From positions 1 to 31,166 of the IMG/VR virus record IMGVR_UViG_3300044715_000234: a stretch of DNA of 31,166 bases; one strand, given 5' to 3'. The notes under the pieces are model-generated. The model had not been told where the DNA came from, ran no database searches, and was given only the letters and a program-made list of their open reading frames with translations. This stretch comes from a virus. The translations under genes and the position numbers were made by a program. Positions 2,394 through 19,276 of the stretch are shown here, piece after piece (within the stretch, counting starts at the first letter, position 1; each line of letters begins with the position of its first letter).

Positions 2394-2406
2394 TATCCTC
2401 GCCATG
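2391..2406 (+). promoter_or_regulatory. Putative promoter of the head genes (leaderless portal mRNA)
   Basis: TGCTATCCT (2391-2399) is an extended -10 box with TATCCT at 2394-2399. A good -35 is not visible, because the terminator stem occupies that position. The expected RNA start is about 2405-2406, at or just before the possible portal starts (GTG 2406, ATG 2415). No Shine-Dalgarno sequence precedes either start. Confidence 0.45.
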
Positions 2407-2414
2407 TGGCTGAC

Positions 2415-3845
2415 ATGCGTGAACTAGGAACATCAGGATTTCAACATTCTGGCGGTTCTGTAACAGACGAATTTTTAGCGAATCTTCAAGGTATTCGTGG
2501 TATTCGTACATGGCGTGAAATGGCTGATAACGATCCCGTGGTCGGTGCGATGCTGTTTGCTGTTGAACGGCTGATCCTGAATCTGAAATGGAAAGTAGAT
2601 CCCTTTGTTGAAGAGGGCAAGACCAAAGCATCCAAGAAAGATGAAAAGGTCGCCGAATTTGTTGAGCAATGCTTGTACGACATGGAAAACTCTTGGGATG
2701 GAACGGTCGCCGAGATCCTGTCGTTTCTGACTTACGGCTGGTCGTACTCCGAGATCGTCTACAAGAAGCGTGGCGGGATGGACACCAAAGACAAGTCCAA
2801 GCGATCCAAATTTAATGACCAAAAAATTGGTTGGAGAAAGATTTCTAACCGAGCGCAAGAAACATTGTTCCAGTGGGACATTGATGAATCTGGCGATGTG
2901 AGAGCAATGCAACAATTAGACCCGTCTGGCGGTCGTGGTCTGGTGTCAATTCCCATTGAGAAGGCTCTGCACTTCCGTACAACCTCCGCTAGAAACAATC
3001 CTGAAGGACGAAGCCTTTTACGCAATGCGTACCGCCCGTGGCGATTTAAACGCACCATTGAAGAAATTGAAGCGATCGGCATTGAACGAGATCTGGCTGG
3101 TCTGCCAGTCGCTTATGTCCCGCCGTCCATGCTTTCGTCCACCGCAACAACAGACGAAGTGTCTGCCCGCAATGCGATCCAAAACATGGTGCGTGGAATC
3201 AAACGAAACCAAAACGAAGGCATCCTTTTCCCGCTCGCTTTTGACGAGGGTGGGCGAGAGATGTACAAACTGACTCTTCTGTCCAGTGGTGGCAACCGCC
3301 AGTTCAACACTGATGCCATTGTTGCCCGCTATGACCAGCGAATCACAATGACAATTTTGGCTGACTTCATTTTGTTGGGTCACGAAAAAGTCGGTTCGTT
3401 CGCTTTGGGTTCGTCAAAGATTGACTTGTTTCTGACTGCGATCGCCCAGATGACCGCTCAGATTTCTGATGTGTTCAACAAGGATGCTGTTCCGAGATTG
3501 TTGAAGTTGAACGGTATGGATCCCCAGCGCGCACCCGTGATGCGAGTGGAAGAGTTGCAGTCCACCGATCTAACTGTTCTTGGTGACTTCATCACCAAAA
3601 TGGCTGGTGCTGGAGCGTTGCAAGTTGATTCTGGTCTGGATGAGTTTGTTCGTGATCTTGCTGGCTTGCCACCAAAGGTTGAAGAAGAGGGTGCTTTACA
3701 ACAAGGTGCCCAGATGCAACCGAATGCGATGCCCCAACCTCCTGTAGCACCGCAGTCTGCTCCACCCGCTGAAGCGCAACCTGCTCAAGCCCCGCCCGCT
3801 CAAGCGTCTGGTAGTGGTTCGGTTGAAGACTACATCATTCAATAA
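2415..3845 (+). CDS. Portal protein
   Basis: This protein forms the dodecameric ring at the capsid vertex through which DNA is packaged and ejected. The start (MRELGTSGFQHSGG), followed by REMADNDPVVGAMLFAVERLI, is characteristic of a DUF935-like group of phage portals. A helical clip/stem region with charged residues follows, then a long Pro/Ala/Gln-rich tail over the last 50 residues that is probably disordered. At about 476 residues its length is normal. I chose the ATG at 2415; GTG 2406 (three residues longer) would suit a leaderless mRNA. The frame is open back to 2367, but that would place the start inside the terminator. The MuF-like gene follows directly. Confidence 0.85.
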   Translation: MRELGTSGFQHSGGSVTDEFLANLQGIRGIRTWREMADNDPVVGAMLFAVERLILNLKWKVDPFVEEGKTKASKKDEKVAEFVEQCLYDMENSWDGTVAEILSFLTYGWSYSEIVYKKRGGMDTKDKSKRSKFNDQKIGWRKISNRAQETLFQWDIDESGDVRAMQQLDPSGGRGLVSIPIEKALHFRTTSARNNPEGRSLLRNAYRPWRFKRTIEEIEAIGIERDLAGLPVAYVPPSMLSSTATTDEVSARNAIQNMVRGIKRNQNEGILFPLAFDEGGREMYKLTLLSSGGNRQFNTDAIVARYDQRITMTILADFILLGHEKVGSFALGSSKIDLFLTAIAQMTAQISDVFNKDAVPRLLKLNGMDPQRAPVMRVEELQSTDLTVLGDFITKMAGAGALQVDSGLDEFVRDLAGLPPKVEEEGALQQGAQMQPNAMPQPPVAPQSAPPAEAQPAQAPPAQASGSGSVEDYIIQ

Positions 3846-3876
3846 AGCCTCACCTTTAACGCCAAACGAGATCGGG

Positions 3877-4713
3877 ATGGCTGGTGCTGTCTCTCAAATT
3901 TCGTCAAGTTTGTCTCGGAGTTTGTTGGGTGTTATTGGTGGTTCGTCGGATGGTGTAACTGCTTTGGGTCGGTTGAGTTCGGTTGATATTTTGGATCAAC
4001 TTCAGGACTTAACACCAGCAATTATTGGTCCGTTGATAAACGAACTTAACTTGTCTGCCATTGATGCGATTGCTTCTATCCCGCCACAGTTAAGCATCGG
4101 AGTCAGTTTCAATACCACTGACCCTCGCGCGCTCGCGTGGGCGACCCAGCGGGCTGGCGAGTTCGTTGTCCAAATCAGTGACGAGGTACGGTCACAGATC
4201 AGGGATCTGATCTCTCGTGGATACCGTGACCAAATGACTGTAGATGCCATTGCAAGAGAACTACGGAACATTGTCGGGTTGCATTCTCGTTGGGCTACCG
4301 CAGTGGAAAACATGTATGTACGAACACTTGACGGGCTTATCAATTCTGGTGTTGCATTAGGTATGGCGACTACGCAGGCAACCAGTCTTGCGGGGGCGTA
4401 CCGTGACAAGTTGATCGCTTCACGGGCTAACACGATCGCCAGAACCGAAGTCATTGGGGCTAATAACGCTGGACGCTATTTGGGGTGGCAACAGTTCATG
4501 CAACAGTCTGGTTATCCGCCGAACTTGATGCAGAAAGAATGGGTTGTTGGTCCTGACGGTTGGCAGGGGATTAATGTATGCGATCTGTGTCTTGAGTTAG
4601 ATGGCACGATTGTTGGTGTGAATGATGAGTTTCCTAGTGGTCGGTTGATGCCTCCGTTGCATCCGAATTGTCGTTGTACTGCTTTGCTGATTTTTCCTGA
4701 GGATGGTTTGTGA
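3877..4713 (+). CDS. MuF / SPP1 gp7-like minor head protein
   Basis: The C-terminal half matches the Mu gpF/SPP1 gp7 head morphogenesis family. It has an IARTEVIGANNAGRYLGWQQ segment, then CDLC (from residue 235), LDG, and PPLHPNCRC (HPNCRC from residue 262), the signature Cys/His set of this domain. Such proteins bind the portal, are carried in a few copies inside the head and affect DNA ejection. In other phages MuF proteins carry C-terminal toxin domains; this one ends straight after the MuF domain. The start is uncertain: ATG 3877 has a weak GAG ahead, while GTG 3814 would overlap the portal by 32 bases. The next gene overlaps its stop (TGATG). Confidence 0.85.
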   Translation: MAGAVSQISSSLSRSLLGVIGGSSDGVTALGRLSSVDILDQLQDLTPAIIGPLINELNLSAIDAIASIPPQLSIGVSFNTTDPRALAWATQRAGEFVVQISDEVRSQIRDLISRGYRDQMTVDAIARELRNIVGLHSRWATAVENMYVRTLDGLINSGVALGMATTQATSLAGAYRDKLIASRANTIARTEVIGANNAGRYLGWQQFMQQSGYPPNLMQKEWVVGPDGWQGINVCDLCLELDGTIVGVNDEFPSGRLMPPLHPNCRCTALLIFPEDGL

Positions 4714-6419
4714 TGCCGTACAAGATTGAGCAGAGGGCTGACAAGTTTGTTGTTGTTCGTGAAGACGGCGGGAGAGTTGTTGGTACGCATTCGTCTAGGG
4801 CTAAGGCGACGGCTCATGTGCGGGCTTTGTATGCAAATGTTAAGGATGCCATTGAGAAGGCAAAGTTTGCTTCTCGTAGCGAAGCAGGCAAGTACGCCGC
4901 TCACATTCGGTGGATGCGAGAGCGGGGTATGGAACCGTTAACGCCTGATGCTTGGCGTAGCCAGAACGCTCAACCAGTTCAACCGACAAGAAGTTCTTAT
5001 GAAAGTTCGTTAGATGCGATCACAAGTTTTGCTAGTGATGAGTTTCAAAGCAGATTGCGTGATGCCGGTGCTTCTATAAGGGGTAGTAGGTATGACGGTG
5101 GCAGATTGGTTCCGTTAGGAGAATATTTAAATATTCAAAACGAAATGTCTGTGGTTAGAGTTCGTAACCCAAATAATCCTGTGAATACAATAATTATTGG
5201 TTCTCCTCCTCTGATGGCGGTTGAACGAGAAGTCAATGAACTGGGCGGGTTAGTGCATAATGCGATACTAGAAAAAATGAAACAAGACGGACATATTTTG
5301 CCAAACGGTGAATTTAATACTGCCAAACACGAAGCGTTAATGCAAGTTCGTGACGAATCGCAGGCTGTTGTTGATGAGATTAGAGCCAAAGCCAAAGAAT
5401 TAGGGCTACAACAGTTCACTGGTTATGAAAACGGTGCCCAAACTGAAGAAATGAAAATTGGGTGGCGTGGAGATCCTAAAGATATAGATACTGCGGACCT
5501 CCCTCCTCGTCTCAAAAATTTGCACGAAAAATGGGACACACTGCACCAAGAATTTTACGAAATTCCGTGGAGTGAACGAGATGCGAATGTTTCAAAAAGA
5601 GAACAGTTAGATGCCGCTAAAGACGAATACGAGAAAGCCGCGCTCGCCGATTTTGAAACTTGGTTTAACGCTAACCACAATCCGTCAGGATCTGGAAGTC
5701 ACAAAGATCAGTTTTCAAAAATAAGTAATAATCACAACAACAATATGAGAGCGGTCTGGTCTTATCCAAATTATGTGGATCGGTATGCTGAAAGTTTTAG
5801 TAAAGTCATGGAAGATCTAAATATTTCTGCCAAGTCACAAATTGGTAAATCTGACCAAATTGATTTAAGTAGAAGTAGGTTGACCAAAGCAGAAAAAGAA
5901 AAGTTTGCTAGGGACATTCACACATTTTTTCCTGCTAAAGCAATCAAAATTTTTAGTGATAGATATGGCTTACTGAAAGTAACAAAATCCAAAGGTGGTG
6001 GGCATTGGAATGTTAGTGATGTACAAATTTTGACATCTAATTCGGAAGGTACGAACATACATGAATTTATGCATGCTTTAACTTATGCGGATCGTCGGGC
6101 TAACTTTGTGGAACAAGCATTTCTTATGCGACGGCAAACAGTTGGTGGGCGTAATAATCAGCCTATTAAAGAACGCATTGTTAATGGTTGGGAAAAACCT
6201 AAACAAACTTATGACGGAGGAAGAGGTAGACGGTTTGACTCTCTATATATTCGTGACGAGTTTGCGGATGAATATACGGGCAGGCATTATTCGTCTGGTC
6301 ATACCGAAACTATGACAACTGGTTTGGATCGCCTGTCTGAAGGTGGCACTCATATTGAAGATCAGGATCACATGAACTCTACTTTAGGTTTGCTTGTAGC
6401 GATTGGGTTGGGACAATGA
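4713..6419 (+). CDS. Tagged head-associated protein with HExxH zincin-like domain
   Basis: This is a 568-residue protein in three parts. Residues 1-45 form a small beta-beta-alpha module (MPYKIEQRADKFVVVRED...RAKATAHVRALYANV) of a type I associate with phage head and protease proteins. Residues 48-83 carry the shared tag (KFASRSEAGKYAAHIRW, then RGMEPLTPDAW). The rest is a long A-rich-coded domain with HEFMH at 450-454, a zinc-metallopeptidase HExxH motif, and a later DEFADEYTGRHYSSG stretch that could supply further ligands. A similar end (Y.G..Y, then HE or TE ahead of a TTG) occurs in the next protein. I infer a head-packaged metallopeptidase-like effector; its substrate is unknown. The start is ATG 4713 (TGATG overlap). 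Confidence 0.7.
   Translation: MPYKIEQRADKFVVVREDGGRVVGTHSSRAKATAHVRALYANVKDAIEKAKFASRSEAGKYAAHIRWMRERGMEPLTPDAWRSQNAQPVQPTRSSYESSLDAITSFASDEFQSRLRDAGASIRGSRYDGGRLVPLGEYLNIQNEMSVVRVRNPNNPVNTIIIGSPPLMAVEREVNELGGLVHNAILEKMKQDGHILPNGEFNTAKHEALMQVRDESQAVVDEIRAKAKELGLQQFTGYENGAQTEEMKIGWRGDPKDIDTADLPPRLKNLHEKWDTLHQEFYEIPWSERDANVSKREQLDAAKDEYEKAALADFETWFNANHNPSGSGSHKDQFSKISNNHNNNMRAVWSYPNYVDRYAESFSKVMEDLNISAKSQIGKSDQIDLSRSRLTKAEKEKFARDIHTFFPAKAIKIFSDRYGLLKVTKSKGGGHWNVSDVQILTSNSEGTNIHEFMHALTYADRRANFVEQAFLMRRQTVGGRNNQPIKERIVNGWEKPKQTYDGGRGRRFDSLYIRDEFADEYTGRHYSSGHTETMTTGLDRLSEGGTHIEDQDHMNSTLGLLVAIGLGQ
4854..4965 (+). repeat. Tag copy 1 (AAHIRWM type)
   Basis: Residues 48-84 of the 4713 protein: EKAKFASRSEAGKYAAHIRW, then MRERGMEPLTPDAW. 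It is one of six copies in five genes. Copies 1, 3, 5 and 6 share AAHIRW followed by RG.xP; copies 2 and 4 share AA[QE]QRWKNHAK. Confidence 0.9.
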
Positions 6420-9232
6420 TTAGGTTCGGGTATGTCCAGAATGGTGTTCAGCGGTTTGCTGAGTGGACTGAAGAGTCTGGGCTTGTATGCGAAGACGATT
6501 TGCTTGATGCCGTCAATCTTTTGATTGGGGCTAAGGCTCCTGTTAAGTGTTCTTGGGTCGGGTATTTGATGGAAGCGTCTGTTGATACTCCTGTGCAGGC
6601 GTGGGGGACTATCAATAAGGCATTGAAGTGGTGTAATGGTGTTGAGTTGGTTCGTTGTACGCCACCGTTGATTGAGTATGACGAGTTTTCGGAACCTGAA
6701 GAGGATCTGCTTGAGAAAGCAACTTTTAGTTCACGATCTGAAGCAGGCAGATATGCCGCCCAACAGCGTTGGAAGAACCATGCGAAACAAGAAACGCTGT
6801 TAACTCCAACCGATGATGTTTCTTTGGCACAAAAAACTGGTCAACCAATTACATGGTTGCTTCCTGCTACACGGGATATGCGGTTAAAAGGTTTGTTAAG
6901 TAGTTTGGCTCCTCATTTTATTGCTACTGGTGTGTCAGTCCAAGATTTTGACTCTGTGTTGGGTGATCCAGCAATTAAACCGTTGATTAAATATTTGGAA
7001 GATAAAGGTATTGTTGATATACCAGATTTTTATAGTTCTGAGGGTGCGACTAATGCTGAGTTGGTTGCTCACGGGTTAATTGTTTCGGCGATGCAAGACC
7101 TTGCTTTGAAGATGAGGTCTAGCAGTTTGGATGTTGACCGAAGCAAATCGTTCAATCAGGCAATTCAGATCGCTACTGATGGTTTTCCAACAGTCAACAT
7201 GGGTATTACCGCTTTTGAGATGATGATGGATGAGGGCGGTCGTTACAAGACACAGTTTGAGGCTGGTGATTCTGGTGGATATTTTAGTCCAGATTTGCGG
7301 GCGGCTTTTGAATCTAGCGTGTTGGGTTTACATCCTGACATGGATGCGACTAAGCGTCCCGTGTATGGCACTATGCAGACCTCAACAAGTTTAAAAACAA
7401 GTGAAGATGCTCAAATGTACGGTGGCATTGTTTTGCAGTTAAAGAATAATGTTCGGGATCGGACAACTGTTGCTTACAACGATTCGTTGGGTATGGCGAC
7501 AAGAACTGCTCCAGCAAACAGTGTTAAAGATGATTCTGGTGGCATGTTTCGTACTGGCATGATTACGGAACCGTTTTTTTATGTTGAGGCTCAGATTCAT
7601 GGTGGTGTCAACATGGATGATGTTGATGCTGTTTGGATTCACAATTTTACGGGTGTAGATGCTGAGGCTCCTCGTCGTGTAAGGGAAGCGTTGGATGCGA
7701 ATGGGTACACGGATGTTCCTGTGTTGCGTGTGGGCGTGGACGAACCTGTGGAGAAAGCGAAGTTCAGTTCACGAAGTGAGGCAGGTAGGTATGCGGCTCA
7801 CATTAGGTGGATGAATGAGCGTGGTATGACTCCGATGACCGCCGACCAGTGGAATGCACAGAACTCTGGTGGTTCGGAGCGCATGCGAAAGATTAAAAGC
7901 ATGCAAGCGGATGTTTCTAAGCGACTTAAAAACTTGAATGATGTTTTGGTTAAGTCTGGTTTGGCATCTGAGGGAATGTGGAACCAAGGAAGATTAGATA
8001 GTAATGGTGATTTAAAGTATGTTGTTGTTGATCCTAAAGATTGGGATAAGACCAGCGTTCCTGAGGTAAGTAAAAGTCCGATGGCGGCATGGCTTGTTGA
8101 AGTAGACATAAAAAACCCAGAGAGTCCTTTTGCAACATATCAAGTTCCTAATGCTGAGGTCATGGCTTTGATGGAGGATGTTAAAACTTTAGGTTCGTTA
8201 ATTGAAGAAGAAGTTCAAGAGCGGATCAACGCACAAAATATTCGTTTGGCAACTGGAGCAGAAGCATCCCGTGACTTTACTTTAAAAATTGTTAACGCCC
8301 AGAGAGTGATAACGCATTACGAAACAATCACTTCCAGATTTTTGAATGATTTCATCACTTTTAAAGCAGATCCGAATGACCCAACACCAAAATTTCAACA
8401 ATATGTTAAGTCAGGTCAACCTAAAATGATTGGGAGCCTTGTTGATTATGCCCCAAGTTTGGGAGAATTTATTGAAAGTAATAACAGTGCTGACGAAAAA
8501 GTTTTGCTTTCTGCTTTAATAGAAAAAACGCGATCTTCTGTTCTTGAATTAAACCAATTAGGATTTGAGCAGAACACTTCGGCAAAATATCGGCGTGAAG
8601 TTTTGGCTGAAATTCGTTCTTTCGGTGCTGACGAAGGTACTCCTTATGAAATTGTTACTGGTTTCAATTTCCCGAATGGGGCACCTGTAGAAGTCCGTAT
8701 TGCTGATGCGATGCAAAATTTACCAACGGCATGGATTGACAATTTAAAAACTTACACGCAAACAAAAACTACGCATAGAGTGTTAAGAGCAAAAACTGTT
8801 AACGAAATGCAATCAGGGTACATTGAAGCGAATCATATAATTCAAACTTCGGCAAATGCTCAGACTGCTTTTGTTATCCACGAATTGGTTCATGCTGTTG
8901 AAGCGTCAAGCCCAGTCATGCGAGCAATGGTTCATTCTTTTGGTGTCAATAGAAGAGTCGGTAATTTTAGACCTTCAGAAGAAAAGTTTGGTAGCACTTT
9001 TGCTCAAAGGTTACAAACTGGGATTTGGGAAGAATCTGGGCGATCTGGTTTCGTTGAAGATAGTTATTTTGATAAGTATTCTGGGCGTGTGTACGGCGGG
9101 TTCGCGTATTCTGCTCACGAACAGTTGACTACGGGGACAGATTATTCGTTGTTTGTCAATACGATTCGTCCGCATGACCGTATTGACTCGGATCAGTTGA
9201 CTTTTACATTAGGAATGTGGGCTTCAGCATGA
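6416..9232 (+). CDS. Double-tagged protein: DUF3626-like domain plus HExxH zincin-like domain
   Basis: At 938 residues this looks like two effector units in one chain. Residues 1-95 form an N-terminal domain related to that of the 9229 protein. The first tag is at 100-124. Residues 130-440 resemble DUF3626: PDMDATKRPVYGTMQ, then an LQLKNNVRDRTTVAYNDS core and VEAQIHGGV. That family is of uncertain activity and possibly ADP-ribosyltransferase-like. The second tag starts near 444 and is followed by a metallopeptidase-like domain with HELVH at 822-826 and a C-terminal KYSGRVYGGFAYSAHEQLTTG stretch similar to the 4713 protein. ATG 6416 overlaps the previous stop. The DUF3626 match is by recall and moderate at best. 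Confidence 0.65.
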   Translation: MIRFGYVQNGVQRFAEWTEESGLVCEDDLLDAVNLLIGAKAPVKCSWVGYLMEASVDTPVQAWGTINKALKWCNGVELVRCTPPLIEYDEFSEPEEDLLEKATFSSRSEAGRYAAQQRWKNHAKQETLLTPTDDVSLAQKTGQPITWLLPATRDMRLKGLLSSLAPHFIATGVSVQDFDSVLGDPAIKPLIKYLEDKGIVDIPDFYSSEGATNAELVAHGLIVSAMQDLALKMRSSSLDVDRSKSFNQAIQIATDGFPTVNMGITAFEMMMDEGGRYKTQFEAGDSGGYFSPDLRAAFESSVLGLHPDMDATKRPVYGTMQTSTSLKTSEDAQMYGGIVLQLKNNVRDRTTVAYNDSLGMATRTAPANSVKDDSGGMFRTGMITEPFFYVEAQIHGGVNMDDVDAVWIHNFTGVDAEAPRRVREALDANGYTDVPVLRVGVDEPVEKAKFSSRSEAGRYAAHIRWMNERGMTPMTADQWNAQNSGGSERMRKIKSMQADVSKRLKNLNDVLVKSGLASEGMWNQGRLDSNGDLKYVVVDPKDWDKTSVPEVSKSPMAAWLVEVDIKNPESPFATYQVPNAEVMALMEDVKTLGSLIEEEVQERINAQNIRLATGAEASRDFTLKIVNAQRVITHYETITSRFLNDFITFKADPNDPTPKFQQYVKSGQPKMIGSLVDYAPSLGEFIESNNSADEKVLLSALIEKTRSSVLELNQLGFEQNTSAKYRREVLAEIRSFGADEGTPYEIVTGFNFPNGAPVEVRIADAMQNLPTAWIDNLKTYTQTKTTHRVLRAKTVNEMQSGYIEANHIIQTSANAQTAFVIHELVHAVEASSPVMRAMVHSFGVNRRVGNFRPSEEKFGSTFAQRLQTGIWEESGRSGFVEDSYFDKYSGRVYGGFAYSAHEQLTTGTDYSLFVNTIRPHDRIDSDQLTFTLGMWASA
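6713..6787 (+). repeat. Tag copy 2 (AAQQRWKNHAK type)
   Basis: Residues 100-124 of the 6416 protein: EKATFSSRSEAGRYAAQQRW, then KNHAK. It closely matches copy 4 in the 9229 gene. It precedes the DUF3626-like domain. Confidence 0.9.
7749..7863 (+). repeat. Tag copy 3 (AAHIRWM type), internal
   Basis: The second copy within the 6416 protein, near residues 445-482: EKAKFSSRSEAGRYAAHIRW, then MNERGMTPMTADQW. It stands between the DUF3626-like and zincin-like domains, at the junction expected if two tag-effector genes fused. Confidence 0.9.
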
Positions 9233-10203
9233 AATTAGATTGGTTGACCGTTGACGGTGACAGTATTTCGTGGGATAACGGGGTGGTTGATGCCCCGCAA
9301 GAGTTTTTGGACAATGTGGACTTTCTGGTTGATGCGAAGGTTCGTGTTCGGTCGCCTCGGTTTTATTTTGCTGAGGAGGTTGCTGGTATGGACACGATGT
9401 TGGGGGCTTTGTTGACGATTGAGTTTTTGTTGGATGTTTTGGGTGTTGGTTTGGTTGAGGCTCCGATGCCGTTTGGGGTGTCGGATGTTTTTGTGACTGA
9501 TAATCACGATGTGTTTGATGGTTCGGGTGAGTTTGAGAAGGCTATGTCTCGGAGTGAAGCGGGCAGGTATGCGGCGGAACAGCGTTGGAAGAACCATGCG
9601 AAGAAGGTTGATCCTGTTCGGGTGCTTGATCCGCAGTATCAGAAAGTTGCTGATCGGATTAACGCTGGTACAAAATCAGTAACTGATGCTGGTTTCCAAA
9701 TTGAAATAATCAATTCTCCTGAAGATCGGCAACGCATATTGGAGATGCATACAAAATTTAAAGATTTTGTTGTTGAACAAAGGAATTTGTGGCGAGATAC
9801 AAAAGGAAAAGAAGGTAAATATTTTTCTGATAGAACAATTTCTGGTCTTCAGTTAATGACAACTTCTATAAAAAGGGGAGCAACACGAGGGACAACAATT
9901 GTTGTTCACGATGGATCATTAGTTGCTGGTGCCGCTCTTGCTCATATTCAGACAAACAGTATGGCTGATGGTAAACCTATGTCAATTTGGCTTATGGGGT
10001 CGGCTCATATAGTTGAAGGTGCTGGTTCTGCTATGTATGGCGCGCTTTTGAAATGGGGTCAATCTCAAGGTGTTACATCTATTGAATTAGATCCGTTACC
10101 TGATGCTAAAACTTTTTGGCAGACAAAAATGAGAATGATTTGGACTGGTGAAGAAATGGTTTATTCTGATAGCAAAATTGGAATGATTGGGGCGTTGAAA
10201 TGA
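9229..10203 (+). CDS. Tagged protein with GNAT acetyltransferase-like domain
   Basis: This protein has 324 residues. Residues 1-95 form an N-terminal domain related to that of the 6416 protein (compare FLDNVDFLVDAK with LLDAVNLLIGAK, and GVGLVEAPMP with GVELVRCTPP). The tag copy is at 103-125. Residues 130-324 look like a GNAT fold: a beta strand pair (TTIVVHDGSLVAGAALAHIQ), then the acetyl-CoA loop region EGAGSAMYGALLKWGQ near 262-277, and SIELDPLP..KTFWQTKM at the end. It would acetylate an unknown amine target. ATG 9229 overlaps the previous stop. Base composition changes sharply after the tag. Confidence 0.7.
   Translation: MKLDWLTVDGDSISWDNGVVDAPQEFLDNVDFLVDAKVRVRSPRFYFAEEVAGMDTMLGALLTIEFLLDVLGVGLVEAPMPFGVSDVFVTDNHDVFDGSGEFEKAMSRSEAGRYAAEQRWKNHAKKVDPVRVLDPQYQKVADRINAGTKSVTDAGFQIEIINSPEDRQRILEMHTKFKDFVVEQRNLWRDTKGKEGKYFSDRTISGLQLMTTSIKRGATRGTTIVVHDGSLVAGAALAHIQTNSMADGKPMSIWLMGSAHIVEGAGSAMYGALLKWGQSQGVTSIELDPLPDAKTFWQTKMRMIWTGEEMVYSDSKIGMIGALK
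9535..9606 (+). repeat. Tag copy 4 (AAEQRWKNHAK type, shortened)
   Basis: Residues 103-125 of the 9229 protein: EKAMSRSEAGRYAAEQRW, then KNHAKK. The KFSS portion of the other copies is reduced to MS, so the conserved core is SRSEAGRYAA..RW. Just downstream the coding strand changes from A-poor to A-rich. Confidence 0.9.
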
Positions 10204-11279
10204 TCGGGTCGTTGGATGATATGGATGATGCGATGCCTGATCTATTGGATTGGCTTCGTTCTAATGTTGAGTTTGAGAAAGCAAAGTTCAGTTCTCGTAG
10301 TGAGGCTGGGAAGTATGCGGCTCATATTAGGTGGATGAACCAGAGGGGTATGACTCCGTTGTCTGCTGAGGCTTGGACGGCTAGTCAGAGTGCTGATGCG
10401 ACACCTGTTGTTACGGCTCCGACTGTACCGTCACGGTTTACTGCTACTGGTATGTGGTGGGATGCACAACCGCCCGCTCTTGCTTCTATGAAAGATGCGA
10501 TCACATGGTTGCAGGATAAATGGGGTGGCACAACAAAAGATCAACGGCGTAGATTCAGAGTAAAACTGAATGCTATGGGAAGTAACCCCAAAACGGATCA
10601 TTTGGCTCAAGCGTATGCCATTGCAATGGATAACTTGTTTAAATTTGCACCTATCGTGGCGGAAACTATTGAAGAAGTAGTTTGGGATGAAAATCAAATA
10701 CGGAATTCGTGGGGTCAGGCTAGTCGTGATGGTCACAGTCTAAATTTCATTGCAAGCACTTTTGTACAAACTTTGATACAGCCAGATGGAACAGTTATCC
10801 CTTCGGAGCAATATGCGTTGTTTGCAAAAGAACAAGCATTTTCAACGGGGTTCAAATCTTCAAGGTCGCTGAGTAGCACTTTTTATCACGAGTTTGGGCA
10901 CCACATTGGGTTTGCCGCTGGTAATAAAGCGTTGTACGGCGATGTTAAAGAAGTTAGACCATCCTTGTATGCGGATTCAGATGATCGTAAAAAGTACAAT
11001 CGTGAACTTGCCAAATTGATTAGCCCGATTCTTAAAGAGCATTACGGAGATGAAAGTCGTGCAAGAATTGAACTTGATGATAAAGCGCAATATAAAATAC
11101 GGGGAAAAATAGAAGAAGACATATCCAAATATGCTTTGACTAACTACGACGAATTGGTTGCGGAATCAGCGGCACAGTATTTTGCCGCCAAATTTGAACC
11201 TGACCAACCGCCAGCGTCACCGTTAGCAATCAAAATTGTTGAGACATTATTGAATTACATAGAAGGAGAGAACAAATGA
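10200..11279 (+). CDS. Tagged protein with zincin metallopeptidase domain
   Basis: This protein has 359 residues. The tag begins at residue 26, so almost nothing precedes it. The C-terminal domain has STFYHEFGHHIGF with HEFGH at 230-234. Near 317-325 comes NYDELVAESAAQYFAAKF, whose glutamates are placed like the third zinc ligand of gluzincin-type enzymes. This is the most convincing of the three HExxH domains in the block. It is probably a peptidase acting on an unknown host or virion protein. ATG 10200 overlaps the previous stop (ATGA). It is followed by two small genes that may be linked in function. Confidence 0.75.
   Translation: MIGSLDDMDDAMPDLLDWLRSNVEFEKAKFSSRSEAGKYAAHIRWMNQRGMTPLSAEAWTASQSADATPVVTAPTVPSRFTATGMWWDAQPPALASMKDAITWLQDKWGGTTKDQRRRFRVKLNAMGSNPKTDHLAQAYAIAMDNLFKFAPIVAETIEEVVWDENQIRNSWGQASRDGHSLNFIASTFVQTLIQPDGTVIPSEQYALFAKEQAFSTGFKSSRSLSSTFYHEFGHHIGFAAGNKALYGDVKEVRPSLYADSDDRKKYNRELAKLISPILKEHYGDESRARIELDDKAQYKIRGKIEEDISKYALTNYDELVAESAAQYFAAKFEPDQPPASPLAIKIVETLLNYIEGENK
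10275..10385 (+). repeat. Tag copy 5 (AAHIRWM type), near N-terminus
   Basis: Residues 26-62 of the 10200 protein: EKAKFSSRSEAGKYAAHIRW, then MNQRGMTPLSAEAW. This copy shows that the tag can work near the N-terminus without a large preceding domain. Confidence 0.9.
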
Positions 11280-11512
11280 CTGAGGGTTTAACGATCTGTT
11301 GGGCTTGTAAGCACTTGCGAGCAGATTCAGCCGTTGTTGACGGTTGGATGGTTTCCACATGCGACGCTTTCCCTGACGGTATTCCGATCAAGATCTTTAT
11401 TGATGGGTTTGACCATCGGAAAGAATTTGGTGGCGATAACGGGGTACGCTTTGAACCGATAACGGTTGATATGGGCGTTGAGGCTCTAAAAATAGTTGAG
11501 GAGTTGTCGTGA
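11276..11512 (+). CDS. Small Cys-containing hypothetical protein (78 aa)
   Basis: The protein begins with a CWACKH C-x2-C pair, followed by CDAFPDGIPIKI and DHRKEFGGDNGVRFEP. I recall this C-x2-C / CDAFP.GIP / DHR..GDNG.RFE pattern from small uncharacterised bacterial and phage proteins. The three Cys and nearby His could bind a metal. Its function is unknown. Because it lies between two tagged effector genes and is co-translated with the zincin gene (ATGA overlap), it is a positional candidate for an accessory or immunity protein. Confidence 0.65.
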   Translation: MTEGLTICWACKHLRADSAVVDGWMVSTCDAFPDGIPIKIFIDGFDHRKEFGGDNGVRFEPITVDMGVEALKIVEELS

Positions 11513-11691
11513 TTTTGATTGCAATGGTTGATAATGCGAAGGTGTTTGACATTGAAGACGATGATCCGATGTTCGGCAAGCGTGTTGTTCTGGAGCGTGG
11601 CGGTGTTCAGAGTGCCCCGATCTTGTTGGAGAATGTGGTTACGAAAATGTCTATGAGCAAGTGGGAATGGATCAACCCCCCTACTAAATAA
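11509..11691 (+). CDS. Small hypothetical protein (60 aa)
   Basis: I do not recognise this protein. It appears to be a small mostly beta protein (AKVFDIEDDDPMFGKRVVLERGG, then APILLENVV). The start is GTG 11509, which overlaps the previous stop (GTGA) and has GAGGAG at 11498-11503; ATG 11524 is the alternative. It is followed by 30 bases before the protease/kinase gene. That gap contains CGGGTTTA, which also occurs in the spacers of promoters P1 and P3, but without a -35 box. Confidence 0.55.
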   Translation: MILIAMVDNAKVFDIEDDDPMFGKRVVLERGGVQSAPILLENVVTKMSMSKWEWINPPTK

Positions 11692-11721
11692 TGCTTATCG
11701 GGTTTACTGTAAGGTGACCGC

Positions 11722-13731
11722 ATGCATACACACGAAATAGACCAGTGGATTAACGGCGATCTGGCGTGGGAAGATTTGTCTGTTGAAGCGCAACGAAGTG
11801 TTGATGCTGATGCGATGAAGGCTGAACCTGTCGCCGAAATGGAACTGGTTCACAAGTCGGTTGCTGAGAAGCGATTCACTTTGGGTCCGTGGTATATCCC
11901 TAATCGGTTGGATGCTCATAATGAGTGGACGGACGCTGACGAGTTGCAGGCTGGTTTGTGGGATTATGTTCGTAAGGGTGATCGTGGTATCCGTTTACAG
12001 CACAATCGTGACATTGTGGCTGGTGAATGGGTTGAGGCTATGCAACTGCCTGTACCGATGCGAATGCAGAAAGCGGCTGACGGCGGGGATGTTGAATATC
12101 CTGAGGGGACAGTGTTTTTGGGTGTTGTTTGGAAGCAGTGGGCGTGGGATCTGGTGAAGAACGGCAAAATTAAAGGTTTTTCTATTGGTGGTTCGTCGGC
12201 TCGTCTGCCAATTGAGCCTGTTTCTAAGGCTGTCGGGTTCAAACCGATGTTTATTCCTGCGTTGATTCGGGTTTCAGGTAAGTCTTTTGCTGTCCGTCCA
12301 GATGGTGGAGGGGTTCGGGTTTCGTCGGGTTCTGATGCTGTTGTGTTTGATCCGTATCGGGCTGATGTGGTTGCTAAGTCTGTTTCTGGAGCGCAGTTTG
12401 CTGATGCGAAGACGATGGTGGCGATTTCTAAAGCGATCTTGACTGGCAATGTTGATGCTGGAATGTGGGCTGATACTGGGGTTTCGTGGGTTTTTGTTAA
12501 GGCTAAGTTCAGTTCTCGTTCTGAGGCGGCTCGTTACGCCGCTCATATTCGTTGGGCTACTGAACGAGGTGAAACCCCGATGGGTGCGGGCGAGTTTTCG
12601 GAACAAATTAAGTCGTCTGCGGATTATGCGATGATGAATTTGAAGAAAAATCGTGATGCTTTGGCTTCCAAGATGGAGTTTCCGCATAACGATCTTCCTG
12701 TTGGTCCGTTGGGTTTGCCAACTTCTCCTGCTGGTAAGTCTTTGTTTAACACTTCTCCGTCGCTTGGCGGGCATGTTGATTTTGACGCTATGGGCAAGTA
12801 CATGATGGATCGTTTAGATCAACCGAACATGGGTTTTGGTAAGGCGGGGTTGCCTACAGAAGCACCGTATGATGTTCTTCGTCGTTTTATGACTCCTGAA
12901 CGGCGGGCTTTGCACGATGCGATCGTTGACGCTCATTTGGCTGGCAAAACGGCTAGAGATGATACCCCCGAATACACTTGGCTTGGTGGTGGTGGTGCTT
13001 CTGGTAAAACCAGCATTTTGGAATCTGGTGCCGCTAGTGTTCCGACCCGTGTTTTGAAGAATGGTTCGGCTGTACCAAGTGGTGATATGCACTCTGTTGA
13101 GATCAATGCTGACGAAATCAAAGATTTGTTACCAGAGTTTTTGGCGTTGACAAAGGGTGGGGAAAAAAGGGTTTATGTCACTGCTGACGGTAGAGAAAAG
13201 CCTTATGAATTGGGTCGTTCAACTGAGCGGGCACGATTTGTTGCGGCTGGTTTTACTCACGAAGAGTCGTCTATCCTTGCGAAGCGTATTAACTCCGAGG
13301 CTATGTACAGAGGTTTGGACATTGTGATGGATGGTACTGCTGACGGCAAACCGGGGGCACAAGCGAAGAAGGTTGCTGTGGCTCAAGCAAACGGCTATAA
13401 AACTCGTTTGATTATGGTGACTATCCCTACCGAAGTGGCTATTGTTCGTTCTAATGAGCGAGGTATTACTTCGGGGCGTAAGGTTCCTGAGTTCGCTTTG
13501 CGTGACGCTCATGTTGGGGCTTCGGCAAGATTTTTGGAAACGGCACCGCTGTATGACTCTTTTGAGGCTTATGATAACTCAGGGCGACCGCCACAAAAAT
13601 TTGTAAGTAAGAGTACCAAGGGTGGTCGGGTTACTATTCAAAATAAAGCCCTGTATGATGCTTTCTTAGCGAAGGCTGGCGAAAGTTTGGGCGAGTCAAC
13701 AGCAAGGGATGAACCGTGGACATTAGCGTAA
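11722..13731 (+). CDS. XkdF-like prohead protease fused through the tag to a zeta-toxin-like kinase
   Basis: At 669 residues this is far longer than a normal prohead protease. Residues 43-205 resemble the XkdF/phage serine protease group, with LQHNRDIVAGEWVEAM around H94 and GFSIGGSS around S154 as likely active-site segments. Tag copy 6 lies at 259-290. From about 390 onward comes a zeta-toxin-type P-loop kinase: Walker A GGASGKTS at 424-431, INADEIKDLLPEF, GLDIVMDGTADG, and RSNERGITSGRKVP. Zeta toxins phosphorylate UDP-N-acetylglucosamine, which blocks wall synthesis. I infer that the protease matures the head and may free the kinase from the tag. AAGGTG precedes ATG 11722. Confidence 0.8.
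   Translation: MHTHEIDQWINGDLAWEDLSVEAQRSVDADAMKAEPVAEMELVHKSVAEKRFTLGPWYIPNRLDAHNEWTDADELQAGLWDYVRKGDRGIRLQHNRDIVAGEWVEAMQLPVPMRMQKAADGGDVEYPEGTVFLGVVWKQWAWDLVKNGKIKGFSIGGSSARLPIEPVSKAVGFKPMFIPALIRVSGKSFAVRPDGGGVRVSSGSDAVVFDPYRADVVAKSVSGAQFADAKTMVAISKAILTGNVDAGMWADTGVSWVFVKAKFSSRSEAARYAAHIRWATERGETPMGAGEFSEQIKSSADYAMMNLKKNRDALASKMEFPHNDLPVGPLGLPTSPAGKSLFNTSPSLGGHVDFDAMGKYMMDRLDQPNMGFGKAGLPTEAPYDVLRRFMTPERRALHDAIVDAHLAGKTARDDTPEYTWLGGGGASGKTSILESGAASVPTRVLKNGSAVPSGDMHSVEINADEIKDLLPEFLALTKGGEKRVYVTADGREKPYELGRSTERARFVAAGFTHEESSILAKRINSEAMYRGLDIVMDGTADGKPGAQAKKVAVAQANGYKTRLIMVTIPTEVAIVRSNERGITSGRKVPEFALRDAHVGASARFLETAPLYDSFEAYDNSGRPPQKFVSKSTKGGRVTIQNKALYDAFLAKAGESLGESTARDEPWTLA
12496..12600 (+). 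repeat. Tag copy 6 (AAHIRW type) between protease and kinase
   Basis: Residues 259-293 of the 11722 protein: VKAKFSSRSEAARYAAHIRW, then ATERGETPMGAGEF. It is the only copy with EAA in place of EAG. It separates the protease from the kinase domain. Confidence 0.9.
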
Positions 13732-13997
13732 ACCGTATTAGCCGTTTGATGCAGGCTATTGTTTTGGGCGAGGACGCTGAGGCGTTATGCGAATCGCCTG
13801 AGGAGTTGCAGATTCTTCCGCAGTTGCGTGAGGAGTGCCAGTTTGAAGATGGAATGATTTTGGATTTCCAGAATGATTCTGTGGATGCGAATGCTTGGGA
13901 TTGTGCTGGGTTTGATCGTGATGCTTGGGAAGCGGCGGGGATGCCTGACGATGCTTGGGCGTTTGTGAAGCCGTATGTATCAGAGGCTTGGGCTTGA
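13716..13997 (+). CDS. Small acidic Trp-repeat protein (93 aa)
   Basis: I do not recognise the family. The first half is acidic and helical. The second half repeats an [NDE]AW unit (ANAWDCAGFD, RDAWEAAGMPD, DAWAFVK, SEAW). The start is GTG 13716, with AAGGG at 13704-13708; it overlaps the kinase gene by 16 bases. Because it is acidic, about the size of an epsilon antitoxin, and coupled to the zeta-like gene, it could be a neutralising partner. I see no sequence match to epsilon, so this rests on position alone. Confidence 0.6.
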   Translation: MDISVNRISRLMQAIVLGEDAEALCESPEELQILPQLREECQFEDGMILDFQNDSVDANAWDCAGFDRDAWEAAGMPDDAWAFVKPYVSEAWA

Positions 13998-14040: not shown

Positions 14041-14424
14041 ATGAAACCAATTGCTGTATACGGAACCCTGATAAAAGGATTCCACAACTCACGGCTGTGG
14101 GATGGGCTTGCTACCTACGAGGAGTGCATCATCCACGATTTCCGTCTTGTCACTCACGGGTGGTACCCGTATGCGATACCAGACGAGGGATCAATAACAG
14201 TCGGTCAAATTATTACGCCGACAAGTGAAGTTAACGCTTCAACGATCTTGTCTCGGCTTGATTATTTAGAAGGTGTTCCCGATCATTACAGTCGTGAATC
14301 TGCAACTGTTGAACTTGAGAATGGTGCGATTGTTACTGCATGGATTTATGTTCCTGTGAGTGATGAATCAAGTTTGGATCCTGTGCCAGAAAACGACTGG
14401 CGACTTTACGCAAGTCTTGTTTAG
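14041..14424 (+). CDS. Gamma-glutamylcyclotransferase-like (AIG2-type) protein
   Basis: This 127-residue protein has the hallmarks of the GGCT/AIG2 fold. VYGTL at residues 6-10 forms the substrate loop, followed by GFHN. G..PYAIPDEG lies mid-chain, and RLDYLEGVPDHYSR places the likely catalytic Glu at 77. Members release 5-oxoproline from gamma-glutamyl peptides or amines. What a phage gains is unclear; changes to glutathione-like thiols or peptide cross-links are possibilities. It has its own promoter (P3) and a strong Shine-Dalgarno sequence, so it is expressed separately from the head genes, like a moron. Confidence 0.8.
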   Translation: MKPIAVYGTLIKGFHNSRLWDGLATYEECIIHDFRLVTHGWYPYAIPDEGSITVGQIITPTSEVNASTILSRLDYLEGVPDHYSRESATVELENGAIVTAWIYVPVSDESSLDPVPENDWRLYASLV

Positions 14425-14461: not shown

Positions 14462-15160
14462 ATGGCTTCGCGGAAAATGGTAAACATGAACATTGAAGAG
14501 ACTTCTGGTGTTGACCATCCCGCGCACATGGACGAAGGATGGATCCTTATGAAGAACTCTGGTTTAAACACCGAAGATTTTGAAACGATTGAAAAAATGG
14601 TCGCTTTGGAATCAGAACTTGCTGACGCTCAGGCTCGCCTTGCCTCTTTAGAAACTGAAGAGACAACCGAAGAGACAACCGAAGACATGGACTACATGGA
14701 CGACGATGCGATGATGAAGTCGGCTCCGCCTGCTGTTCGTGAAGCATTGTTGAAGGCTCGTAACGAGGCTTTTGTTGCTCAGGAAGAACTACGCAAAGAG
14801 CGTGAAGTCCGTCTTGACGCTCACGCAATTGCTAAGAGCATGGACGATTATGGCAATCTTGCTATTGACCACGAAGAATTTGGTCCTGCCCTTCGCCGTT
14901 TGGAAGAACTTGACGCAACAGTCGTTGAGATCATCGCTAAGGCTTTGCAGTCCGCTAACGCTCAGGCTGAATCAGCCAACATTTTTGCCGAAATCGGCTC
15001 TTCATACATGCCAAATACTGCTGGCAGTTTCCAGAAGATTGAATCGCTCGCTAAGTCCGCTGTGACCAAGGGCGAATATAAGACCGTTGAGCAAGCAATC
15101 GCTGGCTTGATTGAAACCAACCCATCGTTGTACGCAGAGTACATCGCTGAAACCCGCTGA
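14462..15160 (+). CDS. Capsid scaffolding-like protein
   Basis: The protein has 232 residues. It opens with NIEETSGVDHPAHMDEGWIL, a motif seen at the protease/scaffold boundary of related phages. It then has a long acidic helical middle with a repeated ETTEETTED stretch, and coiled-coil segments (ALESELADAQARLASLE; ALLKARNEAFVAQEELRKERE). This matches a scaffolding protein placed just before the decoration and major capsid genes. It would shape the procapsid and then be removed, probably by the XkdF-like protease. No Shine-Dalgarno sequence precedes ATG 14462; see the P4 entry. Confidence 0.7.
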   Translation: MASRKMVNMNIEETSGVDHPAHMDEGWILMKNSGLNTEDFETIEKMVALESELADAQARLASLETEETTEETTEDMDYMDDDAMMKSAPPAVREALLKARNEAFVAQEELRKEREVRLDAHAIAKSMDDYGNLAIDHEEFGPALRRLEELDATVVEIIAKALQSANAQAESANIFAEIGSSYMPNTAGSFQKIESLAKSAVTKGEYKTVEQAIAGLIETNPSLYAEYIAETR

Positions 15161-15591: not shown

Positions 15592-16542
15592 ATGCCCCAG
15601 CCCACACAAAATCAGGTACATGTTGATGCGATTCTGACGAACATCAGTGTCGCTTACATGCAAAAAGCCGAAAACTTCATTGCAAACAAGATCTTCCCGA
15701 TCGTTCCTGTTGAGAAGCAGTCGGACAAGTTCTTCAAGTACACCAAGAACGACTGGTTCCGTGACGAAGCACAGCGACGCGCTGATGCGACGGAATCTGC
15801 TGGTGGCGGTTACAACTTGTCAACCGATTCGTACAACGCTGAAGTGTGGGCTTTCCACAAGGATGTTGGCGATCAGACTCGTGCAAATGCTGATGCTCCT
15901 ATCAATGTGGATCGTGAAGCGGTTGAGTTCATTACGAGCCGTTTGTTGCTCAAGATGGAAACTGAATTCGTTTCAAGTTATTTCACGAGTGGCATTTGGG
16001 CTACTGACAACACTCCGTCAAACTTGTGGTCGGATTACACCAACAGTGACCCGTTGAACGATGTTGAAGATGCGAAGCGAGCAATCCTTTCCACTACTGG
16101 TTTTGAACCGAACACGCTTGTGCTTGGTTACGATGTTTTCAAGGAATTGAAGAATCACCCAGATCTCGTTGACCGTATCAAGTACACCTCGTCTTCGGTT
16201 ATCACGACTGACATGATCGCTCGTATGTTTGATGTTGATCGTGTTGTGGTTTCAAAGGCTGTCAAGGCAACCAACAATGAAGGTGCCACTGGTGCTTATG
16301 ACTTCACTGCTGGTAAGAATGCGCTCTTGTGCTATTCGGCTCCGTCACCGGGTCTTCTCCAGCCGTCTGCTGGTTACATCATGTCTTGGACTGGTGTTTC
16401 TGGTGGTCTTGGTCAGACGATCGGTTCAAGCCGTTTCCGTATGGAATCAGTGAAGGCTGACCGTATTGAAGCAGAAATGGCTTTTGACATGAAGGTCGTT
16501 GCCGCTGACCTCGGTTACTTCTTCGCCAGCGTGGTTTCGTGA
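15592..16542 (+). CDS. Major capsid protein
   Basis: This 316-residue HK97-fold type coat protein builds the icosahedral shell. It begins VDAILTNISVAYMQKAENFIANKIFP, then has the extended arm region (DKFFKYTKNDWFRDEAQRRA). It continues with NPLND-like VEDAKRAILSTTGFEPNTLVLGYDVFKELKNHPDLVDRIKY and SSVITTDMIARMFDVDRVVV, which is typical of the A-domain in this coat-protein group. The end (RIEAEMAFDMKVVAADLGYFF) is also typical. There is no cleavable scaffold domain, which agrees with a separate scaffold gene upstream. AAGGAATAAATC precedes ATG 15592. Confidence 0.9.
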   Translation: MPQPTQNQVHVDAILTNISVAYMQKAENFIANKIFPIVPVEKQSDKFFKYTKNDWFRDEAQRRADATESAGGGYNLSTDSYNAEVWAFHKDVGDQTRANADAPINVDREAVEFITSRLLLKMETEFVSSYFTSGIWATDNTPSNLWSDYTNSDPLNDVEDAKRAILSTTGFEPNTLVLGYDVFKELKNHPDLVDRIKYTSSSVITTDMIARMFDVDRVVVSKAVKATNNEGATGAYDFTAGKNALLCYSAPSPGLLQPSAGYIMSWTGVSGGLGQTIGSSRFRMESVKADRIEAEMAFDMKVVAADLGYFFASVVS

Positions 16543-18709: not shown

Positions 18710-19276
18710 ATGACGGTAGGGTTACGACTCATGTTGAGACGGATTCTTGTTTTGTCGGTTTTGTTGGTTGGTTGTGGCAGTTTGAAGGGGGCTGATTCCC
18801 CGCCGACAACTTCGGTGACGATGCGAACAGATCCCCCTGTGATTGTTCCAGAAACAACTGTGGTGATCCCGACCACCACTACTGTTCCCGTGACTACCAC
18901 GACTGAGGTTGATTGGATTGGTGTTGCTGAGACTTGGGCTTTGCAAACTGATGTGGCTCGTTTTGTTCACGGGCGTTGCGGTGAGTGGCACGATCTGGCG
19001 ATGACGGTCGGTTGGCATGAAGAGGAATGGGAAACATTAAGCACCGTTCTGTGGACTGAATCACGATGCGATCCTTCTGCATGGAACGGACATGATGCGG
19101 GTTTGAGCCAGATAAATCAGATTCATACTGAATGGCTAAACCAAATGGGTTTTTCGCACCCTGATGACATGTTTGATCCTGCGTTGAATCTGGCGTTTGC
19201 TTACAAGTTGTATTCGTCAAGGGAAGAGAAGGGTCAATGCGGTTGGAAGCCGTGGACTGAACCCTGCAACGACTAA
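18710..19276 (+). CDS. Lipoprotein lytic transglycosylase with Thr-rich stalk
   Basis: This 188-residue protein has an N-terminal signal with a lipobox (LVGC, Cys 22), a Thr/Pro/Val-rich stalk (about 33-66) and a C-terminal SLT-like domain. WTESRCDPSAWNGHDAGLSQI places the catalytic Glu at 117, and FDPALNLAFAYKLYSS follows. It should cut peptidoglycan glycan strands from outside the membrane. Two Cys pairs suggest disulfides, fitting export. As a lipid-anchored enzyme between the tail terminator and tail tube genes it is an unusual endolysin; it may instead be a virion or surface factor. ATG 18710 or ATG 18731 could be the start; both keep the signal. Confidence 0.75.
   Translation: MTVGLRLMLRRILVLSVLLVGCGSLKGADSPPTTSVTMRTDPPVIVPETTVVIPTTTTVPVTTTTEVDWIGVAETWALQTDVARFVHGRCGEWHDLAMTVGWHEEEWETLSTVLWTESRCDPSAWNGHDAGLSQINQIHTEWLNQMGFSHPDDMFDPALNLAFAYKLYSSREEKGQCGWKPWTEPCND

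Follow-up and report, generated by a model that had tools for sequence, protein, structure and literature searches.

A short internal peptide joined to diverse enzymes in the head-gene region of uncultured phages: a candidate capsid-loading signal

Why do five neighboring genes of one virus, coding for proteins with different enzyme-like domains, share a single short peptide? The genes are located in the virus record IMGVR_UViG_3300044715_000234 from IMG/VR, of which positions 1–31,166 were analyzed (this whole stretch of 31,166 nucleotides (nt) is referred to as the window). The peptide, called here the tag, has the core SRSEA[GA][RK]YAAxxRW and is present in six exact copies in five large open reading frames (ORFs), g1–g5 (4710–13731, + strand). 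All copies are in frame, and the cores start at nt 4872 (g1), 6731 and 7769 (g2), 9547 (g3), 10293 (g4), and 12514 (g5). The first four tagged ORFs overlap head to tail; all five lie between the MuF-like gene and the gene in the scaffold position, with the portal gene upstream and the major capsid protein gene downstream. An earlier note on this DNA had reported six tag copies in five large genes, and the count was confirmed: 2000 residue shuffles of the five proteins yielded no tag match, and a looser six-frame pattern found no copy beyond the six in the whole window.

IMG/VR was scanned with the six tags (49 loci), by a second scan (68 loci from the best 80 of 81 matches), and with a DNA pattern (99 stretches); the contigs overlapped widely. 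Matches were joined by contig, and a tag-model cut-off of 20 bits was applied. The resulting set comprised 290 tagged ORFs with 383 tags in 86 contigs, including the window. At least two tagged ORFs were present in 62 of the 86 contigs, and 224 of the 290 ORFs had one tag, the other 66 having two to five. Two contigs were practically identical to the window across the 17.8 kb compared, and L003 is a copy of the window. Intermediate scores were rare in tagged contigs: 11 distinct sequences, several of them cut copies, scored 6–20 bits. Contig L084 has two further, diverged tags under the cut-off, at 17–18 bits. Five loci matched by the pattern (L212, L245, L246, L266, and L275) were dropped, as their contigs had no tagged ORF at 20 bits. 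In L236 (3–302), the tag is broken at a variable position by an in-frame stop (AAE-stop-RW), after which the frame is open through RW; the stop may be a mutation, a sequencing error, or a case of readthrough.

Conservation was assessed for the 269 tags (202 ORFs) left at 90% identity. Core positions R2, A5, A9, A10, R13, and W14 were each kept in at least 98.5% of these, S3 in 92.6%, and Y8 in 91.4%. The tag is about 25 residues long, its conserved residues cover about 13 positions over a predicted helix, and its net charge has a mean of +3.7, being at least +2 in 98% of the 383 tags. In the one AlphaFold2 (AF2) model of g1, helix 58–71 overlaps the tag core (residues 55–68), and the tag is flanked by low-confidence stretches. 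No Pfam family was found over the tag in the window proteins, and a PDB chain search with the tag gave no relative (best E 0.16). The first tag of a protein starts at a median residue of 60.5, and the 168 complete ORFs divide evenly, 84 with 60 or more residues ahead of it and 84 with fewer than 60.

Among the six window tags, 103 of 165 same-amino-acid codon pairs differed, compared with 107.3 expected at random. The codons are thus randomized while the peptide is retained, which indicates that selection acts on the peptide and that the window tags are not a recent DNA repeat. Across 30 non-redundant contigs, tag codons within a contig were identical at a rate of 0.410 vs 0.323 at random, so recent copying has some part outside the window. 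The likeness of tag peptides was also higher within contigs (0.716) than between them (0.601; reached by 0 of 500 permutations). Since both peptide and codons show the within-contig excess, co-adaptation is inseparable from recent copying.

The tagged genes are found among head genes. In the locus examined, 80 of the 86 contigs carried one or more of the structural genes used as markers (portal, MuF, protease, scaffold-position gene, capsid protein, small gene before the capsid protein, or tape measure). The usual order was portal, MuF, tagged genes, protease (mostly tagged), tagged genes, scaffold position, and capsid protein, and some loci had additional tagged genes ahead of the portal. When portal, MuF, scaffold-position gene, capsid protein, and the small gene before it were taken as head markers, 250 of the 290 tagged ORFs had one within 12 kb in the same locus, every one on the same strand.

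The sequences on both sides of the tag vary. The 261 post-tag segments (cargos) formed 47 BLAST clusters, labeled C, and the 158 leaders ahead of the tag formed 31, labeled N. The possibility that the tag belongs to a single protein family is ruled out by the 47 cargo clusters. These are not 47 folds, because C1, C7, and C10 all have the HExxH motif and C2 and C5 both resemble ADP-ribosyltransferases (ARTs); at least five folds are found among the cargos, namely zincin, ART, GNAT, zeta kinase, and topoisomerase IB. The tag was accordingly tied neither to one domain family nor to one fold behind it, patterns that the earlier note had named among its refuting conditions. One leader cluster may be combined with many cargo clusters: 13 for N0 (38 members), 9 for N2 (16 members), 7 for N3 (10 members), 6 for N4 (10 members), and 5 for N7 (5 members). 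Some leaders are invariable, such as N5, whose 8 members pair with one cargo cluster, and untagged relatives of leaders exist as well (N0 in 4 contigs, N1 in 4, and N3 in 7).

Exchange boundaries lie at several tags, where the homology between close relatives breaks off. The window and L007/L009 are 95–96% identical from nt 13987 onward, and their homology breaks at 9605 (end of the g3 tag), 10265 (start of the g4 tag), and 12603 (48 nt beyond the g5 tag core). An aligned piece shared with L008 extends from 4837 (start of the g1 tag) to 6722 (inside a g2 tag). For protein pairs with the same leader and different cargos (927 scored of 936), similarity ended at a median of +18 relative to the tag end (interquartile range (IQR) 2 to 47.5), no more than 20 aa from it in 452 pairs. 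For pairs with the same cargo and different leaders (358 scored of 475), similarity started at a median of −1 from the tag start (IQR −16 to +6). The earlier note had proposed that one tag joins different effector-like domains in neighboring head-region genes, by analogy with the swappable domains of polymorphic toxins, and had named as support a search of phage and metagenome proteins that finds the tag beside a variety of unrelated enzymes near portal and MuF genes. The cargo clusters, the leaders with many of them, the breaks at tags, and the head-gene proximity in the IMG/VR contigs bear this out.

The enzymes behind the window tags were assigned by motif, family, and predicted fold. In g1 (4710–6419, +), leader N2 and the tag are followed by a zincin cargo of cluster C1. 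HExxH was present in 26/28 members of C1, 12/12 of C7, and 5/5 of C10. The g1 model had a mean pLDDT of 72, and for its domain 378–568 the first seven rows of the structure comparison were lethal factor/PPEP zincins, with Z scores of 8.2–7.0, which are middling and refer to a predicted model (root-mean-square deviation 3.3–3.8, 144–150 residues aligned). A viral structure search with the same model gave two matches at E ≤ 0.001, both uncharacterized, and a weaker match (2.7e-3) named phage head morphogenesis. The second tag of g2 (6416–9232, +) is also followed by a C1 zincin. Between leader N3 with the first tag and this second tag lies cargo C2, a DUF3626 domain (Pfam match 2.8e-9), so that both g2 domains named in the earlier note were recovered; the g1 zincin is supported by its HExxH motif and by the predicted fold. 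The AF2 model of the DUF3626 domain (pLDDT 83) resembled SopF (Z 12.3, 185 residues aligned, 4.4 Å; Foldseek 2.4e-7) and DarT (Z 10.8, 171 residues, 3.5 Å), and the cargo alignment has invariant R, Y, E, and Q columns. On this modeled fold, the domain is predicted to be an ART. Another ART-like cluster, C5, matched ADPrib_exo_Tox at 6.3e-13 in L010 and 6.9e-32 in L044.

The remaining three calls of the earlier note were GNAT for g3, a clearer zincin for g4, and a zeta-toxin-like kinase for g5. In g3 (9217–10203, +; leader N7, tag, cargo C8), the window member alone matched GNAT weakly (0.11 in one scan, and 0.041 in another with a GNAT model other than Acetyltransf_10), while 8 of the 11 family members matched Acetyltransf_10 at E ≤ 1 (best 7.1e-7). 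BLASTP gave no alignment between the g3 cargo and a clear GNAT member, so the call rests on the family scan. In g4 (10200–11279, +; short leader, tag, cargo C10), H-E-x-x-H is invariant in the five aligned members; the Pfam scan gave no hit, so the zincin assignment is by motif alone. The kinase of g5 (11722–13731, +) was found as cargo C4 (PF06414, 4.2e-16), with the P-loop (Walker A) in 17/17 cluster members. Zeta toxins have kinase activity on UDP sugars. What had been missed is the start of g5, an XkdF-type prohead protease (leader N1; Peptidase_S78_2, PF14550, aa 40–160, 4.6e-9), which precedes the tag.

Outside the window, a tagged topoisomerase IB (1.1e-17) is encoded upstream of the portal gene in L007 (1766–2926), and DUF6321 and DUF5872 were found in several tagged proteins. 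A Pfam scan of another 20 cargo segments left most of them without a match above the cut-off. Several effector domains may be joined in one polypeptide, as in g2 (DUF3626/ART and zincin), L044 (ART and a weak GNAT), and L084.

Does the tag belong to its carrier or to its cargo? Among the 168 complete tagged ORFs, only the L007/L009 protease has fewer than 30 aa after the last tag. It stops 18 residues past the tag and lacks both the zeta domain and an acidic ORF behind it; its tag, SRVEAGKYAEHVRR, is the sole one among 269 with altered AA..RW residues. The cargo-less protease of L010/L011 ends in SRSEAERAYPHD, an apparent tag remnant, and that of L084 has no tag. The tag has thus eroded in two cargo-less protease lineages, which suggests that its retention depends on the cargo rather than on the protease. 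The zeta cargo of g5 is overlapped by an acidic ORF of 93 aa (13716–13997, +; 21 acidic and 5 basic residues). Acidic ORFs of 55–120 aa follow 16/17 zeta cargos vs 18/160 other cargos, and none was found after the cargo-less proteases of L007/L009, L010/L011, and L084. The zeta gene of L084 is separate, and an acidic ORF follows it. We infer from this association that ORF 13716–13997 may act on the zeta cargo as an antidote or regulator.

The MuF-like head protein of the window (3814–4713, +, 299 aa; PF04233, 8.7e-13) is short and has no C-terminal cargo. MuF exceeds 400 aa in only one of the 56 contigs with a complete copy (median 327 aa), namely L084. There, a MuF protein of 2275 aa (2399–9226) bears tags and matches M90 and lethal-factor-like zincins as well as ART-PolyVal, the last at 5e-7, just under the Pfam cut-off. 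Its ORF was the only one found to combine MuF and tags (phmmer with the window MuF as query), the tag and MuF systems being merged there in one gene. The view that the tag is separate from MuF is supported but needs correcting for L084; the prohead protease is also one of the carriers. Related domains were matched in head proteins of known phages. The C5 ART matched the C-terminal part of phrog_595 (6.4e-4) and the Alt-like phrog_802 (6.8e-5), the ORF at L295:5521 matched the C-terminal part of phrog_7625 (2.7e-18), and the g5 zeta region matched phrog_16619, a minor head protein (2.2e-25). The window MuF matched the earlier part of phrog_595 and phrog_7625. Families seen here as cargo are also part of head proteins that known phages encode (phrog_595, phrog_7625, and phrog_16619).

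Signals for head entry have been described for T4 (PMC9026906) and P1 (PMC9024508), in both cases as far as the consulted parts of these sources go. The T4 internal proteins IPI–III share a short capsid-targeting sequence (CTS) on otherwise divergent bodies, the propeptides are N-terminal and 10–19 residues long, and T4 also packages and injects the ART Alt (PMC9026906). The tag resembles the CTS, compared by description, in that one short peptide is found on several proteins with unrelated bodies; it differs in its length, its internal position, its occurrence up to five times per protein, and its many leaders. In P1, an N-terminal peptide of fewer than 30 residues directs the anti-restriction effector DarB to the capsid (PMC9024508, in the part consulted), and unlike this signal of one protein, the tag is internal and common to many enzymes. 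The MuF polymorphic toxins of temperate phages combine a constant trafficking part with exchangeable C-terminal enzymes (parts of PMC5576092 and PMC12226406). Variable C-terminal effector domains also stand behind the tag; here, however, the constant part is a separate peptide on many genes, and MuF is nearly always short. The tag is thus outside the T4/P1 type by position and outside the MuF type by trafficking domain. Among polyvalent proteins and head-packaged ARTs, domains of the zincin, ART, and GNAT types occur within multidomain proteins that phages are presumed to inject (parts of PMC5512222 and PMC9503650). The tagged proteins have the same kinds of domains, several per polypeptide, and the ART-PolyVal match of L084; a tag common to domains and genes sets them apart from polyvalent proteins as described in those parts.

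Taken with these analogies, the sequence evidence points to the tag as an internal signal, usable with many cargos, for loading effectors into the capsid for injection; it would function like the capsid-targeting sequences of T4 and P1, and we assign this reading a probability of about 0.5. The tag would sit between the carrier or leader and the enzyme and bring the enzyme into the prohead, probably by binding a part of the inner head that stays constant (the scaffold, portal/MuF, or packaged DNA). The enzymes would then be ejected alongside the genome and act in the new host. Cargos would be exchangeable at the tag because the tag is the part that they share. Packaging, ejection, a binding partner, and action on the host are thus what we infer for the tagged enzymes. 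A fuller version is put forward more tentatively, with doubt slightly outweighing belief: one transplantable address peptide would serve the whole lineage, with tagged enzymes packaged and injected, effectors swapped as cassettes, the protease, MuF, and small leaders as carriers, and an acidic antidote accompanying zeta. The interpretation of the earlier note, in which a separate tag loads a set of enzymes into the head for injection, is partly supported overall.

Several observations weigh against capsid loading. The tag is internal and not N-terminal as in T4 and P1. There are 40 of 290 tagged ORFs in loci without a head marker, and in the longer records G001 and G002 some tagged genes are far from the capsid genes. 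Prohead proteases without an intact tag are found in L007, L009, L010, L011, and L084, which means that the tag is not needed by every inner head protein, and tag erosion is known from only two lineages. Aligned pieces between relatives also start or stop inside cargos, e.g., at 7298, 8812, 10424, and 11357. Finally, much of what is seen could equally come from a tag that serves in processing or in DNA binding.

In the first of these roles, the tag would be a processing site cut, at the tag or beside it, by the prohead protease or by cargo zincins to free the cargos from their carriers and from polyproteins with several tags, and the leaders would decide head entry. The 66 ORFs with two to five tags fit such a site, as do tags between protease and zeta and inside the MuF protein with zincins, and the position of the g1 tag between low-confidence stretches of the model; zincins have also been proposed to process multidomain phage polyvalent proteins (PMC5512222, in the part consulted). 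Conservation at about 13 positions over a predicted helix is nevertheless more than the short T4 motif L/I-X-E (PMC9026906, in the part consulted), and release seems less useful for the 224 ORFs with a single tag and for the 84 complete ORFs with fewer than 60 residues ahead of it. We consider processing unlikely, although it is the most serious alternative to a loading signal. Rather improbable is a nucleic-acid-binding helix, the alternative raised in the earlier note, which would hold the cargo to the packaged genome or act on nucleic acid in the host. The basic charge of nearly all tags favors it, and so does a chance-level match (E = 7) in Mycobacterium phage DLane, where the matched gene is annotated as DNA binding protein in one of the two records of that phage. 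The tag has neither a Pfam family in the window proteins nor a PDB relative, and the invariance of A-A and R-W and the near-invariance of R, S, and Y fit a specific partner better than charge alone, though DNA could still be that partner.

A mere spacer, kept as a DNA-level hinge for cargo recombination, would account for the homology breaks at tags and for the within-contig codon likeness (0.410 vs 0.323); it is an improbable explanation for a peptide that the six window tags keep despite randomized codons and that erodes where no cargo follows. It is very improbable that the tagged enzymes stay out of the virion and work in the infected producer cell, either in assembly or in taking over the host: head-gene location alone is not proof of packaging, but the cargo families match those in head proteins of known phages, the cargos include ARTs, the class to which the head-packaged Alt of T4 belongs (PMC9026906, in the part consulted), and the prohead protease and MuF serve as carriers.

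Outside IMG/VR, a tag scan of bacterial genomes and prophages (GTDB) gave 218 candidates, none of which was confirmed. A pattern scan of bacterial genomes yielded at least 117 stretches, which were judged to be chance matches (best tag-model score among those listed, 21.1 bits). With three tag versions, tblastn against cultured phages (INPHARED) matched only phage DLane (two records), the short queries limiting sensitivity. By capsid protein, the closest cultured relatives are Arthrobacter and Microbacterium phages (50–53% identity), and no tag was found in 23–37-kb regions of four cultured relatives (best score 7 bits). Three cultured Arthrobacter relatives (L290, L292, and L293) have a longer MuF of 535–552 aa, and in these a 2H phosphoesterase domain, annotated as RNA ligase or aldolase, precedes the fused S78 protease. 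No integrase or resolvase (PF00589/PF00239) was found in seven records, which are possibly fragments. In published text, with subscription literature mostly outside the search, the tag core strings were not found, nor was a publication combining a zeta toxin with phage capsid and minor head protein, nor one since 2018 combining capsid targeting, phage effectors, and ejection proteins.

Other window features surround the tagged genes. In the g1 leader (window 4725–4850), there is a second motif ending in RALY, and the region matches phrog_3684 (2e-5). Right behind the C10 zincin gene lies a Cys-containing ORF of 78 aa (11276–11512, +) with no Pfam match; similar ORFs follow C10 in L003, L007, and L010, and a small Cys-containing ORF is also found after the MuF polyprotein of L084. 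A gamma-glutamyl cyclotransferase (GGACT; 14041–14424, 9.5e-20) separates the effector cluster from the gene in the scaffold position (14462–15160, +). The latter name, "scaffold" in the earlier note, is positional: the position holds, and the match is to phrog_13547 (3.1e-55), a family of unknown function. The major capsid protein (15592–16542, +) matches phrog_1005 (4.6e-99) and is 53% identical to that of Arthrobacter phage Ottawa, and an SLT transglycosylase-like ORF lies in the head-tail region (18710–19276, 1.2e-8).

If the tag is a loading signal, the injected effectors of uncultured phages could be listed from sequence alone, and the cargo clusters that match no known family would be places to look for new enzymes. 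The tag makes the choice of injected cargo by a phage directly testable.

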